A stretch of 64,000 bases of DNA from Chloroflexota bacterium (GCA_009937635.1 JAACFF010000001.1:1-64000); one strand, 5' to 3'. Shown: positions 15,386 through 20,615, counted from the first letter of the stretch. The notes: generated by a model from the letters alone, not told the origin. Made by a program: numbers and translations.

Positions 15386-17158
15386 CTAGATCTTGGCAAC
15401 GCGCTCGACCACACGTATGGATACGGTCCGGCCCGCCCGGCGCAATTCAACCGTATCGCCATGATTAATGTTGTCGATGACATCGGCGTCAAAACGGTAG
15501 GCGTAGGGCAATCCTTCCAGCGAGCAGGCGGGGGCGCTGTGTTGGTCGATATCGGTGTTGACGATGGCCAGAGGCGCCTGGTCGCGGTAAATGAGTTCTA
15601 AGAGGACGTAGGGAGCAACGGAGGATCCGCTGCCCTTGGGGAAAATGGCGACTTTACCGGCCATGCTTTGCCCGTCTCGCGGGTGGCCCGGCTCCTCGAC
15701 GACGCCGGTCTCACGATTGACAAAACCGAGGAAGGTGATCGGCGCCTCGCTGACGAAAGCTTCACCTTGAATAGTGAAATCGCCTTGGGAGGGGAGGCCG
15801 TGGCCGGAAGAGGTGAAGGGGTTGGTGGCGAGGAGCGAGGACGGAGGAGGGAAAGGTGAGGGGTGAAGGGCGGGTGGCGAGTGGTCTGGAGAGAGGGGTG
15901 GGTCTTGTGGTTTGAATTTAAGCCGGCCGGTGGTGAGGGCTATGCAGTCGGGAAGGTTCATGACGGAGGTGGGGATGCCGTTGAGCCCTGATTTGATGTA
16001 GTGCTCCGCCTTCATAGAGTTGGTCAGAACGTGCTTGACCCATTTCTGGTCATAGGGCACGACTTCGGGGCAGGTGTTTTCCAGTAACAGCGCGCCGCTA
16101 TTGCGAATGATGGCAGCTGTGCCCGTTTTTTCGGCTATGGCTTTGTTGGCGGAGGAGGTAAATATCCAGAGCGGCGGGGGAGCACCTGGCGCTGCCGGAT
16201 CGGCGGTGACCTTTTTGCCGCGTAATAACTCGGCCGTAGCGCGCAATTCGCCCATAGATGCCTGCGGGCAGCCTATGGTGACCAGGGAAACGGCCGACTT
16301 GGGGCGCAGTTCCTTGTAGCGTTGGGCCAGTTCAGCCGGTCCGAAGGAAAGGTGGGCCTGGAAGGTGGCGGGTGGATGATCTTCCAGATAGAGCAATGGG
16401 CAGCCATAATTGGCGGCGGCGGCGGAGAGCGCCTTCTTCTGTTCGTGGCTCATCCCTGGCGGCAGTCCCATAATGGCGGGAATGGGACCATAGGGCATTT
16501 TCCAATCAGGATGGCGCTGCTTGCCAATCCAGTCGCCAAGGATGGAAAAGTCGGTGGGATCGGCCAGTTCGGCGGTGACGATCACCTGTAAATTGGGGCC
16601 TCGCGCTTCTTCGCTTAGCAGCCCGTAATAGGGGGCGTAGCCGGTGAGGGCGGAGGCCAGGGCGGACAAACCGGATTCACGATTGGTGTGCAGATCGCAG
16701 TAAGAGTTCCCGAAACAGATGGCGTTGGATTCGGCCCAGGCAGCGGTGCCCTCGGTGACCACGCCTTCCCACTCATATGGAATACAGGATTGGGTCGGCC
16801 GTACACCCAGCTTCGCATAGAGGGAAACAATCTCGTGATTGTGTTCTAAGAAATGGGGCGCTGTGATGCGCATGGCTTCAAACTGCTCTTCGTCACAGCC
16901 GGCAGAGTTGAGCGTTGTGGAGGCAGCGACTTTGGCCAAGGGGTCGCGGGTCAATTTCGCCAGGAACTGGCGTAGACCCAGTCCACCGGTAAGCGGCGAG
17001 ACGCCGGAAAGATGGGCGCTGCGAATGGGGACCAGTTTGGTCGCGCCGGCGGCAGCGGCCATGTCCAGTAACAAACGCATGCCCATTTGCTTGGCAACGC
17101 CGCGCTCACCACTTAGCATCGCTTGTTGTTCGCGGTTGAGGGGGACAGTTTCTGTCAT
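15386..17158 (-). CDS. aconitase X, large and small domains fused (candidate phosphomevalonate dehydratase)
   Basis: The 590-residue protein joins the aconitase X catalytic part (DUF521, about 1-415) to the swivelling small part (DUF126, about 459-590). Likely iron-sulfur ligands are Cys125 (SCIPYEW), Cys297 (IGCPQAS) and Cys363 (ENTCPEVV). The active-site stretch WAESNAICFGNS...HTNRESG is well kept, and the small domain has GEAFVSEAPITF, GHPRDGQS and PKGSGSS. The family includes mevalonate-5-phosphate dehydratase of archaea and hydroxyproline dehydratases of bacteria. The UbiD-like gene in the same operon favours the mevalonate-type reaction, which is an inference. The two parts are joined by an odd Pro/Ser linker (416-458). 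The start lies two bases after the stop of the stress-protein gene. Confidence 0.85.
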   Translation of the reverse strand: MTETVPLNREQQAMLSGERGVAKQMGMRLLLDMAAAAGATKLVPIRSAHLSGVSPLTGGLGLRQFLAKLTRDPLAKVAASTTLNSAGCDEEQFEAMRITAPHFLEHNHEIVSLYAKLGVRPTQSCIPYEWEGVVTEGTAAWAESNAICFGNSYCDLHTNRESGLSALASALTGYAPYYGLLSEEARGPNLQVIVTAELADPTDFSILGDWIGKQRHPDWKMPYGPIPAIMGLPPGMSHEQKKALSAAAANYGCPLLYLEDHPPATFQAHLSFGPAELAQRYKELRPKSAVSLVTIGCPQASMGELRATAELLRGKKVTADPAAPGAPPPLWIFTSSANKAIAEKTGTAAIIRNSGALLLENTCPEVVPYDQKWVKHVLTNSMKAEHYIKSGLNGIPTSVMNLPDCIALTTGRLKFKPQDPPLSPDHSPPALHPSPFPPPSSLLATNPFTSSGHGLPSQGDFTIQGEAFVSEAPITFLGFVNRETGVVEEPGHPRDGQSMAGKVAIFPKGSGSSVAPYVLLELIYRDQAPLAIVNTDIDQHSAPACSLEGLPYAYRFDADVIDNINHGDTVELRRAGRTVSIRVVERVAKI

Positions 17159-17160
17159 GG

Positions 17161-17604
17161 CTAGCTCTCGTCTTCCGGGCGCACGATCTGTACTTCGACG
17201 CCACTGTTTTCGTAAATTCTATCGGCAAATTGTTTGACGGCATCCTCACCGGCCAGTTCGGCCGTTGTGCCGCGTGGCGCGCCCAAAAGCAGGATGCTGG
17301 CCCTGTTCTCGGTCAAGTAGCGGCAGATTTCATCTTGCACATTGCCCAAGAGAATTACCGTGTCGGCCTTCAACCCGGCATCACGAGCCCGTTTTTCGGC
17401 CACGACCAGCAGCGCTTTGCCAAGCCAGATAAGCTCGTCGCGTATGACATCTTGCAGCGCAGATTCTTCCTGGCTCAACATGCCCGGGGAAACAACGTAA
17501 ATAAAGACGAGCGGGTTCCCAGTACGTTGGGCAAGATCGATGGCCGCCAGTTGTACAGCCCGGCTGCCTGCACCACCTCGTGTCGCACAAACAATATCAT
17601 TCAT
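17161..17604 (-). CDS. universal stress protein (UspA) family
   Basis: The 147-residue single Usp domain starts MNDIVCATRGGAGS and has the alpha/beta order of the family, with ILLLGAPRGTTAE as the last nucleotide-binding strand and loop. The classical ATP motif G-2x-G-9x-G-S/T is not fully kept, so ATP binding is uncertain. The ATG at 17604 overlaps the antiporter stop by eight bases and has GGAAG before it. A longer frame from 17619 is less likely. Usp domains often sit beside transporters, and this one may regulate the antiporter encoded upstream. Its position between the antiporter and aconitase X, with overlaps, indicates one mRNA. Confidence 0.8.
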   Translation of the reverse strand: MNDIVCATRGGAGSRAVQLAAIDLAQRTGNPLVFIYVVSPGMLSQEESALQDVIRDELIWLGKALLVVAEKRARDAGLKADTVILLGNVQDEICRYLTENRASILLLGAPRGTTAELAGEDAVKQFADRIYENSGVEVQIVRPEDES

Positions 17605-19282
17605 GGTTGTCTTCCACATCCTTTTCAGTCGCGGGAGAAGTTTCCGGCGTCGAGGAACGGGGCCTGCGGCTCTCTCTGATCAAGTCTAATGCAGCCATAC
17701 GATTGTCAGCAGCGTGGACCAGTTCCTCGTGTACCGCTTCGGAAATCACGTCGTGCTGCATGGCGTCGGTAATGGCAGAGCGTTCGGCGCGCAGGGCGTC
17801 GGTACGTGCCTGCAAAAACAACTCTTGCTCCAATTCCGGATGGGCTTCCATGTGATCGCGTATGGCCAGTTTGGACTCGCTAATCTCTTCATTATAGACG
17901 GCGCTCGTTGCATCCCAGATATCGCGAAACAGCATGCCGTCTTTACGCAGCCGGTTTAATTCTTGTAAGCCTGCGCGTTTGGTGAAGAGGCGCGCTTGGC
18001 GGCGCTGGTGTTCCAACAGATGTTCAGGCCGCTCGGCCAGGCCCAGGCGGCGGATCAACGCTTCAATGGTTATACCTTGTACAAGGAGGGTAAAGAGTAC
18101 AACGGCGAAGGTCATCACTTGCAGTTCCCTGGCAAAGGTCTCGCCGAAGACATCACCGGTGAGGGTCAAGGCCAACGCCAAACTGATGGCGCCGCGTAAA
18201 CCACCCCAAAACATCACGTGTCGATAGGACCCTGGGATCTTCTGCGGTAAGGAGGTGAAGCGTGAATAGATAGCGGTTATGCCATAGACGACGATGGCGC
18301 GGCTGAACAGAACCGCCAGCACGGCGACGATGATCGGTATGATGTTGGGCCACATCTGTACGATCTCTATTTCTAGACCGATGAACAAGAACACGAGAGA
18401 GTTGGCTACGAAGGCCATGAACTCCCAAAAGTTATCTAGGGTGAGCCGCGTGGTGGGGGATGTATTTTGTGTGCCGATATTGCCGACCATCAGCCCAGCA
18501 GCCACCACGGCCAGGATGCCGCTCACGTGGAAACGCTCGGCGATTACGTAGGCACCTAAGGCCAGAGCCACGGTCGTTGAGGTTTCGATTAGATGATCGT
18601 CCAGATTTTTCAAAATGCCGTAGGAAACCACATAGCCCAAAATGAACCCAACCGCAAGCCCGCCTAGAGCCACGCGGAAAAATTCGACTAGCCCTTGCCA
18701 TAAGATTGAAATGCCTTGTTGAGCGGGATCGATGCCAGAGGCGGCAAACCCCACGGCCATACTAAAGAGCACAATAGCCACACCATCATTGAGCAGACTT
18801 TCCCCTTCCACCAGAAGCCCCAGTCGTTTGCTCACGCCAAGGGTGCGGAAAAAGGAGATCACGGCTACCGGATCCGTGGCGGAGATCAACGCGCCAAAAG
18901 CGAAGGCTGCCAACAAAGGTACATCAAGCACCCAGGTGATGATTTCACCAACAATCACGGTTCCGAGCAGGGTGCCGAGAACGGCCAGGAGCAAAATGGG
19001 AACAATATCCTGGCGCAGTTTCTCCCACTTGATCTGCAGGGTGGCCTCAAATAGCAGGGGAGGCACAAGGATGGCCAGAATTAAATCGCTGCTGACGTCG
19101 ATCAGAAACGGGTTGGGGAAGAAGGAGAGGAACAGCCCCACAGCAACCAGGGCGACCGTGTAGGGGACACGGATACGACGGCTAATGATGGCCACCAGCG
19201 CCGCGATGGACAGCAGCACAACAAGACCCAATTCCTGTTGAACCAGCCCACTTTCTTCAGCTAATAGCGTTGCGAAACCCAT
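17597..19282 (-). CDS. CPA1-family Na+/H+ antiporter
   Basis: The 561-residue membrane protein has about twelve helices, followed by a hydrophilic C-terminal tail of some 150 residues with coiled-coil character. CPA1 signatures are visible: ALISATDPVAVISFF with the ion-binding Asp, and VEGESLLNDGVAIVLF. The enzyme exchanges sodium or potassium for protons across the cytoplasmic membrane. The ATG at 19282 (MGFATLLAEES) is preferred because GGAGG lies 5 bases upstream; the longer frame lacks a ribosome binding site. It starts 16 bases after the UbiD-like gene and overlaps the stress-protein gene, so it is part of a four-gene operon. The metabolic link of an antiporter to the two flanking enzymes is unclear. 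Confidence 0.9.
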   Translation of the reverse strand: MGFATLLAEESGLVQQELGLVVLLSIAALVAIISRRIRVPYTVALVAVGLFLSFFPNPFLIDVSSDLILAILVPPLLFEATLQIKWEKLRQDIVPILLLAVLGTLLGTVIVGEIITWVLDVPLLAAFAFGALISATDPVAVISFFRTLGVSKRLGLLVEGESLLNDGVAIVLFSMAVGFAASGIDPAQQGISILWQGLVEFFRVALGGLAVGFILGYVVSYGILKNLDDHLIETSTTVALALGAYVIAERFHVSGILAVVAAGLMVGNIGTQNTSPTTRLTLDNFWEFMAFVANSLVFLFIGLEIEIVQMWPNIIPIIVAVLAVLFSRAIVVYGITAIYSRFTSLPQKIPGSYRHVMFWGGLRGAISLALALTLTGDVFGETFARELQVMTFAVVLFTLLVQGITIEALIRRLGLAERPEHLLEHQRRQARLFTKRAGLQELNRLRKDGMLFRDIWDATSAVYNEEISESKLAIRDHMEAHPELEQELFLQARTDALRAERSAITDAMQHDVISEAVHEELVHAADNRMAALDLIRESRRPRSSTPETSPATEKDVEDNHE

Positions 19283-19298
19283 AATACCTCCAAAAAGA

Positions 19299-20615
19299 TC
19301 ATGAATGTACGTAGTCGGATAAATTGACAGCCCCATATTTGCCTTTTTGGAATTTGCTTCGATTTGCTCCCCAGGGAATGGTGCAATCGAGCCCCATTTT
19401 GGCCGTTAAGCTCTTTTGGCCCGGAACGTGGACGCCGGATGGGTCAAGGGAGCTGCCGGGTTGGTCTTGGAATGTATAGAGGTCCTCACTGGCCTGAAAA
19501 CGCGTGGCCATCGCCCACTGTACCTCGTGTGGATCATAGATATCGATATCACCGTCGACGATCCAGACATGCTTTAGGGAACTATGCCCACGGAAGGCGG
19601 CATCAATAGCGATACGGCCGTCATCGGGACCTTGCTTGTCGATTTGGACCACGGCATGCAGCCAGGAAGCGCCTCCAGGTGTGATCACTGCGCCGGTACA
19701 CCTGGCCACTTTGTTCACTTCGGCATAAATTGTAGGTTCTCGCGGCATGCCCATCAGCAATTTATGTTCCAGACCGCCCGGCAATAAGGCATGAAATATT
19801 GGATTTCGTCTGTGGGTGATGAGGTCTATTTCAATGACGGGCTGGTCGCGGATGATGTCCATTGTCTCAGTGAGGTCCATGAACGGTCCTTCTGCCACTC
19901 GCCGGCGCGTGATGCGGCCCTCCAACACGATCTCAGCATCGGCCGGAACTTCGAGATCCTTGGTCAGGCATTTGACCAGGGGTGTGGGGGCCAGCGCCTG
20001 GGCGACCGAAAGCTCGTCTACACCGGGTGGGGGAGACATTGAAGCTGCCAGGTGCACCGCCTGGGAAACGCCAATACAGATGGCGATGGGCAAATCGCCT
20101 TCGGTCTTGCTTAATGCCGTATGGGTTCCACGTCGCTCGACAATGCGCACGGCGAAATGATTTTTATCCAGTCGTAACAATCGATGGTAGCACATGTTAC
20201 GCCCCAGATCGGGATCTTTGATGATGGCTACATTGCTGGCTATGTAATGGCCTGCATCTTGCGCCAGGTGCAGAAGAATGGGCAATTGAAAGAGATCGAC
20301 ATCTTCTACAATCACTTCCTGGCAAGAGGCTTTCTCGAGCATGGGTGGTAGTTGGGGATTCGCAACGGCCACTGAAAGATGATGCATGAGCTCAGGCAGG
20401 GGCACGCCCAGATCCATACTGAAAAATTTGCGGTCGGAACATAGGCCTGAACATACACGCCAGCCGGGATAATTCTTGATCTCGTTGAACAATACAAGTT
20501 TGCCCTCAAGGGCATGGGCAACGTTGGCCAGCTCATAGGAGGTGTCCACGGGCTGGTCGATGCGTACCAGATCGCCGCTCTCGCCGGCCTTGGCAATAAA
20601 ATTGCGGAAGCTCAT
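19299..20615 (-). CDS. UbiD-family prenyl-FMN decarboxylase (candidate anhydromevalonate phosphate decarboxylase)
   Basis: The 438-residue protein has the three-part UbiD fold pattern: an N-terminal domain with EDVDLFQLPIL, a prenyl-FMN domain with GRNMCYHRL and RIVERRGTHTA, and a C-terminal domain with DCTIPWGANRSKFQKG. The catalytic loop reads EGPFMDLT (Glu242, with Asp247 where typical UbiD has a second Glu). The stretch LLPGGLEHKLLMG also looks more like archaeal UbiD relatives than ubiquinone UbiD. Archaeal homologues decarboxylate trans-anhydromevalonate 5-phosphate. It is the first gene of an operon that ends with aconitase X, the preceding enzyme of that route. The ATG at 20615 has AGGAAAGGAA before it. 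A UbiX-type prenyl-FMN maker is needed but is not in the window. Confidence 0.85.
   Translation of the reverse strand: MSFRNFIAKAGESGDLVRIDQPVDTSYELANVAHALEGKLVLFNEIKNYPGWRVCSGLCSDRKFFSMDLGVPLPELMHHLSVAVANPQLPPMLEKASCQEVIVEDVDLFQLPILLHLAQDAGHYIASNVAIIKDPDLGRNMCYHRLLRLDKNHFAVRIVERRGTHTALSKTEGDLPIAICIGVSQAVHLAASMSPPPGVDELSVAQALAPTPLVKCLTKDLEVPADAEIVLEGRITRRRVAEGPFMDLTETMDIIRDQPVIEIDLITHRRNPIFHALLPGGLEHKLLMGMPREPTIYAEVNKVARCTGAVITPGGASWLHAVVQIDKQGPDDGRIAIDAAFRGHSSLKHVWIVDGDIDIYDPHEVQWAMATRFQASEDLYTFQDQPGSSLDPSGVHVPGQKSLTAKMGLDCTIPWGANRSKFQKGKYGAVNLSDYVHS

Follow-up and report, generated by a model that had tools for sequence, protein, structure and literature searches.

Does a bacterium of the Chloroflexota make isopentenyl diphosphate (IPP) through the archaeal-type mevalonate branch? 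The question is raised by an operon at positions 15386-20615 of a 64,000-nucleotide stretch of a Chloroflexota genome (GCA_009937635.1, JAACFF010000001.1:1-64000; hereafter the window), in which genes for a UbiD-like decarboxylase and an aconitase X (AcnX) lie together. In line with the proposal of an initial annotation, we find that the two genes very probably encode anhydromevalonate phosphate decarboxylase (AMPD) and phosphomevalonate dehydratase (PMDh), respectively, an assignment supported by active-site residues, tree placement, gene context and the pathway inventory of relatives. Substrates, reactions and co-transcription are what we infer from these sequences, residues, operon structure, trees and inventory. 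In the proposed route, mevalonate kinase (MVK) would form mevalonate 5-phosphate, which the fused AcnX would dehydrate to trans-anhydromevalonate 5-phosphate, using a cluster that Cys125, Cys297 and Cys363 coordinate and Ser512 as the general base; UbiX would supply prenyl-FMN, the UbiD protein would decarboxylate trans-anhydromevalonate 5-phosphate to isopentenyl phosphate, and isopentenyl phosphate kinase (IPK) would phosphorylate the latter to IPP.

The operon and its two probable signature enzymes

The tightly packed four-gene order described in the initial annotation is borne out by the open reading frames (ORFs) and their profile matches:

20615-19299, minus strand: UbiD-family decarboxylase, probable AMPD, 438 residues (TIGR00148, 330 bits; UbiD Pfam domains)
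19336-17597 (longest ORF), minus strand: CPA1-type Na+/H+ antiporter (TIGR00831, 329 bits, cut-off 279.6; Na_H_Exchanger, 244.6 bits)
17619-17161, minus strand: UspA-like universal stress protein (PF00582, Usp, 42.8 bits)
17158-15386, minus strand: single-chain AcnX, probable PMDh, 590 residues (PF04412, AcnX, 294.9 bits; PF01989, AcnX_swivel, 69.9 bits)

On the minus strand the four ORFs follow one another as UbiD-like, CPA1, UspA and AcnX; the Pfam matches of all four proteins exceed their cut-offs, and the UbiD-like protein carries the N-terminal, middle and C-terminal domains of its family. The previously described gaps of 16, -8 and 2 bases fit with internal methionine starts for CPA1 and UspA, the one at 19282 in CPA1 leaving the 16-base gap after the UbiD-like gene, while the longest ORFs make the first two junctions overlap. 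Promoter and terminator scans gave counts no higher than chance.

Residues ~1-412 of the AcnX chain correspond to the large-subunit domains 1-2-3 and residues ~463-590 to the swivel domain 4, with a disordered linker at about 420-440 (421-439 in the AlphaFold model, which has a pLDDT of 86 and a pTM of 0.86). The best solved match of the model is 7cnr_A, the AcnX of Thermococcus kodakarensis (TkAcnX; TM 0.88 of target), and 7cnr_B also matches (0.75). As described by Watanabe et al. (2021, PMC8184944), type I AcnX is one chain with the swivel domain first (4-1-2-3) and type II consists of two subunits; the 1-2-3-linker-4 order of the window protein is not among the AcnX layouts listed there. 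In contrast to the two subunits expected of a PMDh (AcnX type IIb), the window AcnX is thus one 590-residue chain, which we regard as a layout difference within the PMDh family because its Marine Group III homologue is also a single chain and lies in a mevalonate operon.

Alignment to TkAcnX, with the roles of the substrate residues taken from PMC8184944, reveals a PMDh-like active site. The cluster cysteines Cys110, Cys283 and Cys342 are kept as Cys125, Cys297 and Cys363, and the type-I site C position holds a glutamate and no cysteine, which is the PMDh cluster pattern. Also kept are Glu129, Ser130, Lys361, Tyr365, Asn79 and the phosphate-binding Gly48-Val49-Ser50 loop (TkAcnX numbering), and the swivel domain presents Leu, Ser, Ser and Val at the positions of Leu27, Ser62, Thr63 and Val64, with serine replacing Thr63. 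The type-I landmark positions, including Cys510 of site C, are occupied by Ser, Leu, Val and Glu, and the protein therefore lacks the type-I signature. Elsewhere in the same genome (L040, 5854-7559, contig C239) lies another AcnX, which consists of two subunits and carries Asp and Trp as hydroxyproline-type enzymes do.

The UbiD-like protein contains both the EGPFMD motif and the archaeal-like LLPGGLEHKLLMG read in it previously. The closing aspartate had been singled out as a departure from a second glutamate; it is present and is the norm of the AcnX-linked UbiD group, since it closes EGPFxD in 59 of 59 UbiDs examined (the window protein plus 58 encoded at AcnX loci, most of them in archaea).

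A species-genome scan recovered 16 further Chloroflexota loci with a fused AcnX (64-72% identity), of which two bear the label Promineifilum (L073 and L074, the latter record being the same genome as G144), and two Marine Group III-like euryarchaeote loci (L079 and L080) with ~50% identity to the window AcnX. The UbiD proteins of the fused-AcnX relatives are 70-78% identical to that of the window. In archaea the recurrent neighbourhood is MVK-(UbiX)-UbiD-AcnX large-AcnX small-(IPK), and the Marine Group III locus L079 reads MVK-UbiD-fused AcnX with UbiX adjoining. The pairing of the two genes is not a matter of chance: among Promineifilum relatives, and at the majority of the archaeal loci compared, UbiD adjoins AcnX or sits a few genes upstream of it.

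Pathway inventory and alternative sources of IPP

Pathway genes were sought family by family in the metagenome-assembled genome (MAG) that contains the window (6.56 Mb in 658 contigs, 95% complete, 8.12% contaminated). It encodes two hydroxymethylglutaryl-CoA (HMG-CoA) reductases, an archaeal-type HMG-CoA synthase, MVK and a UbiX (240.6 bits; cut-off 108.9). IspG, the one enzyme by which the absence of the 1-deoxy-D-xylulose 5-phosphate (DXP) route was judged, was found in 0 of 32 genomes, and a control search recovered it in nine well-known bacteria. Among the other fused-AcnX Chloroflexota genomes, none of 17 holds a diphosphomevalonate decarboxylase (MDD)-family gene and 14 of 17 carry an IPK above the curated cut-off. 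Without IspG or MDD and with IPK in most of them, those genomes show no means other than AcnX plus UbiD of converting mevalonate 5-phosphate into isopentenyl phosphate, and for most of this group of Chloroflexota the gene content suggests that IPP comes from the archaeal route alone.

Several observations weigh against this assignment. On the phosphate side of the AcnX active site, two positions are unlike those of TkAcnX, with Asn53 replaced by Thr and Ser131 by Asn. The pathway is, moreover, incomplete in the window's own assembly: searches for IPK there matched only glutamate 5-kinase and aspartokinase, the stretch after MVK on contig C11 encodes ribosomal protein L28 and no IPK, and the LOG-family gene that neighbours IPK in several relatives is likewise without a match. 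The concurrent absence of the LOG-family gene suggests, though it does not prove, that a stretch of assembly is missing, and we infer that IPK is missing from the assembly rather than from the organism. Finally, the same genome holds two MDD-family genes, 66% identical to one another and scoring ~266 bits to TIGR01240, above its cut-off, on contigs C533 and C322:

L056, 4101-5183, minus strand: diphosphomevalonate-decarboxylase-like gene
L055, 2244-3197, plus strand: diphosphomevalonate-decarboxylase-like gene

Of the genome-wide expectations set out in the initial annotation, the presence of MVK and UbiX and, as judged by IspG, the absence of the DXP route thus hold in the window's genome, whereas IPK was not found in this assembly and two MDD-like genes, which the 17 relatives lack, are present.

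These two genes invite the alternative that the organism makes IPP chiefly through an MDD-family decarboxylase, either by phosphomevalonate decarboxylase with IPK or by the classical route, leaving AcnX and UbiD redundant or serving another purpose. Both genes lie over the TIGR01240 cut-off, and several other Anaerolineae hold an MDD-like gene together with the AcnX/UbiD set. We nevertheless consider this alternative improbable, given that AcnX and UbiD form the sole route seen across the MDD-free, IspG-free relatives, that the genome's GHMP proteins, profile-checked in part, include no recognisable phosphomevalonate kinase, and that the MAG is 8% contaminated. In the two MDD-like genes the lysine of the KYWGK motif is replaced by Asn, and GC content does not clearly separate their contigs from the window; they possibly represent contamination or a parallel phosphomevalonate decarboxylase route.

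As a separate observation, a single cluster on the archaeal contig L096 comprises MVK, an MDD-like gene, UbiX, UbiD, the large and small AcnX subunits and IPK, and thus seems to encode the two decarboxylation routes side by side.

Phylogeny, origin and gene neighbourhood

A quick-search tree built from 114 AcnX large domains places the window protein among 17 fused Chloroflexota sequences (support 99), next to which stand the fused Marine Group III protein (support 100) and then the two-subunit AcnX of two Heimdallarchaeota (99), the whole fused clade nesting inside the archaeal PMDhs. The association with hydroxyproline dehydratases that the initial annotation had named as a refuting outcome is not recovered: grouping the fused Chloroflexota AcnX with the hydroxyproline-type AcnX was rejected by an approximately unbiased (AU) test (p=0.009), although this and the following AU-type p-values are only indicative because the trees come from quick searches and the groups were partly picked after tree inspection.

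The placement also bears on the idea that AcnX and the UbiD-like gene are neighbours by accident and take no part in a common pathway. The best NCBIfam match of the AcnX is indeed a hydroxyproline dehydratase equivalog, though its 206.8 bits fall far below the cut-off of 700, and the best solved match of the UbiD-like protein is 6h6x, a UbiD-family decarboxylase. Against an incidental adjacency stand the PMDh-like landmark residues, the separate hydroxyproline-type AcnX of the same genome, the tree and AU test that place the window AcnX with archaeal PMDhs, and the recurrence of the pair beside MVK in archaea, and we hold it to be very improbable. A misbinning of archaeal DNA, as the contamination of the MAG and the archaeal type of AcnX and UbiD might suggest, can be set aside as next to impossible, since it is already contradicted by repeated bacterial synteny: genes such as FtsZ and galactokinase lie close by in the window, two genomes of the same family (one of three contigs and 99% complete) share this neighbourhood, FtsZ included, and many Chloroflexota MAGs that were assembled independently contain the gene pair.

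The archaeal branch itself seems to have entered the phylum repeatedly. A single clade of all Chloroflexota PMDh-type AcnX was rejected (p=6.6e-5), as was a clade uniting the fused AcnX with the L094/L021/L022/L023 set (p=1.4e-6), and another Anaerolineae PMDh set is placed beside Asgard sequences. The rejection of a single origin indicates that Chloroflexota gained archaeal PMDh at least twice, and the drawn tree would allow for perhaps three or four acquisitions. The Anaerolineae sequences L236, L237, L241, L242 and L046 (genomes G072, G232, G397 and G200) represent two-subunit PMDh-type AcnX accompanied by UbiD, UbiX and also an MDD-like gene, and take separate positions near Asgard archaea. 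Two other Chloroflexota, L045 (G149) and L041 (G138), have very divergent AcnX with altered substrate residues and long branches. A record titled Deltaproteobacteria bacterium (L110) bears a PMDh-type AcnX, HMG-CoA reductase and IPK on one contig, which would make it a further bacterial example unless the contig is archaeal and misbinned.

In the UbiD tree, which contains only two outgroup sequences and leaves the experimentally characterised AMPDs outside, the window protein falls with the AcnX-linked UbiDs of Chloroflexota L094, Methanomicrobia, Thermoplasmatota and Bathyarchaeota, and is separate from HmfF and InD. The UbiD of Marine Group III, only 42% identical to that of the window, branches elsewhere, and these differing positions hint that the adjacent UbiD and AcnX genes came from different donors. 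Constraining the fused-clade UbiDs to share their origin with those of Marine Group III gave p=0.106, so that co-descent is neither shown nor rejected; one shared origin for the Chloroflexota UbiD set was rejected (p=5e-6). With evenly divided confidence, we propose that the single-chain PMDh was fused once in a Marine Group III/Heimdallarchaeota-like archaeal lineage and passed to the Promineifilum-group Chloroflexota, where it would have been paired with an AMPD of other archaeal ancestry in a mosaic branch, and that other Chloroflexota would have received two-subunit PMDh separately from other archaea.

The remaining genes of the operon also recur. CPA1 lies between UbiD and AcnX in eight relatives and UspA is likewise placed in six, whereas in the Promineifilum lineage UbiD directly adjoins AcnX and a CPA2 antiporter then follows in most loci. 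Locus L069 has the order UbiD-CPA1-UspA-MscS-like-AcnX-CPA2-small protein (the MscS-like and small-protein labels were read by eye from sequence); the window operon has CPA1 and UspA and is without the MscS-like and CPA2 genes. Ion-homeostasis genes (CPA1, UspA, MscS-like, CPA2 and a small PII-like protein) are thus steadily linked with Chloroflexota UbiD/AcnX (L069, 5578-13541; L064, 5470-11764; window, 15386-20615). The initial annotation had the antiporter co-expressed with the route: it is a conserved neighbour of UbiD/AcnX and would be co-transcribed with them. We know of no reason for an antiporter to act in isoprenoid synthesis.

Relation to known systems

The initial annotation regarded an archaeal-type route in Chloroflexota as new; such a route is very likely present, but the hypothesis, while correct, had already been published, as the title of Kanno et al. 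(2024, Appl Environ Microbiol 90:e0110624), as cited in PMC13001223, describes the archaeal mevalonate pathway in Candidatus Promineifilum breve. Judged by that title, the described organism shares with ours the phylum, the group (the Promineifilum MAGs L073 and L074 are among the closest relatives) and the two signature enzymes. The 2024 study reportedly describes activity of both enzymes, and its title lends independent support to the assignment made here. What is added here is the single-chain PMDh with its Marine Group III link, the evidence that archaeal PMDh was acquired several times, and the wide range of genomes that seem to depend on the route. A search limited to the literature available recovered no text tying AcnX to UbiD, or Marine Group III to mevalonate.

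The comparisons support the view that a route long called archaea-only operates in a broad group of uncultured Chloroflexota, where it apparently has no rival as a source of isoprenoids and was gained more than once, and they bear on the debate over whether bacterial mevalonate pathways are ancestral or acquired. Since no matching of two subunits is needed, the single-chain PMDh may also be handy for engineering.

The alternative mevalonate pathway of the Roseiflexus type, which combines phosphomevalonate decarboxylase and IPK (Dellas et al. 2013, PMC3857490), is likewise found in Chloroflexota and likewise proceeds through isopentenyl phosphate and IPK, but a GHMP-family decarboxylase there replaces AcnX and UbiD. 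Type I AcnX is a single chain like the window protein but has the reverse order 4-1-2-3, [2Fe-2S] ligands and Asp/Trp substrate residues, which the window AcnX lacks; the 1-2-3-linker-4 layout itself is that of mitochondrial-type aconitase. With the PMDh of Aeropyrum pernix and T. kodakarensis (AcnX type IIb) the window AcnX has in common the fold, the cluster cysteines and substrate-binding residues, and it differs from them in being one chain rather than two subunits and in carrying Thr, Asn and Ser for Asn53, Ser131 and Thr63. The window AcnX also resembles the fused AcnX of Marine Group III, which in L079 has the same domain order, ~50% identity and an MVK-UbiD-AcnX operon, in an archaeal host.

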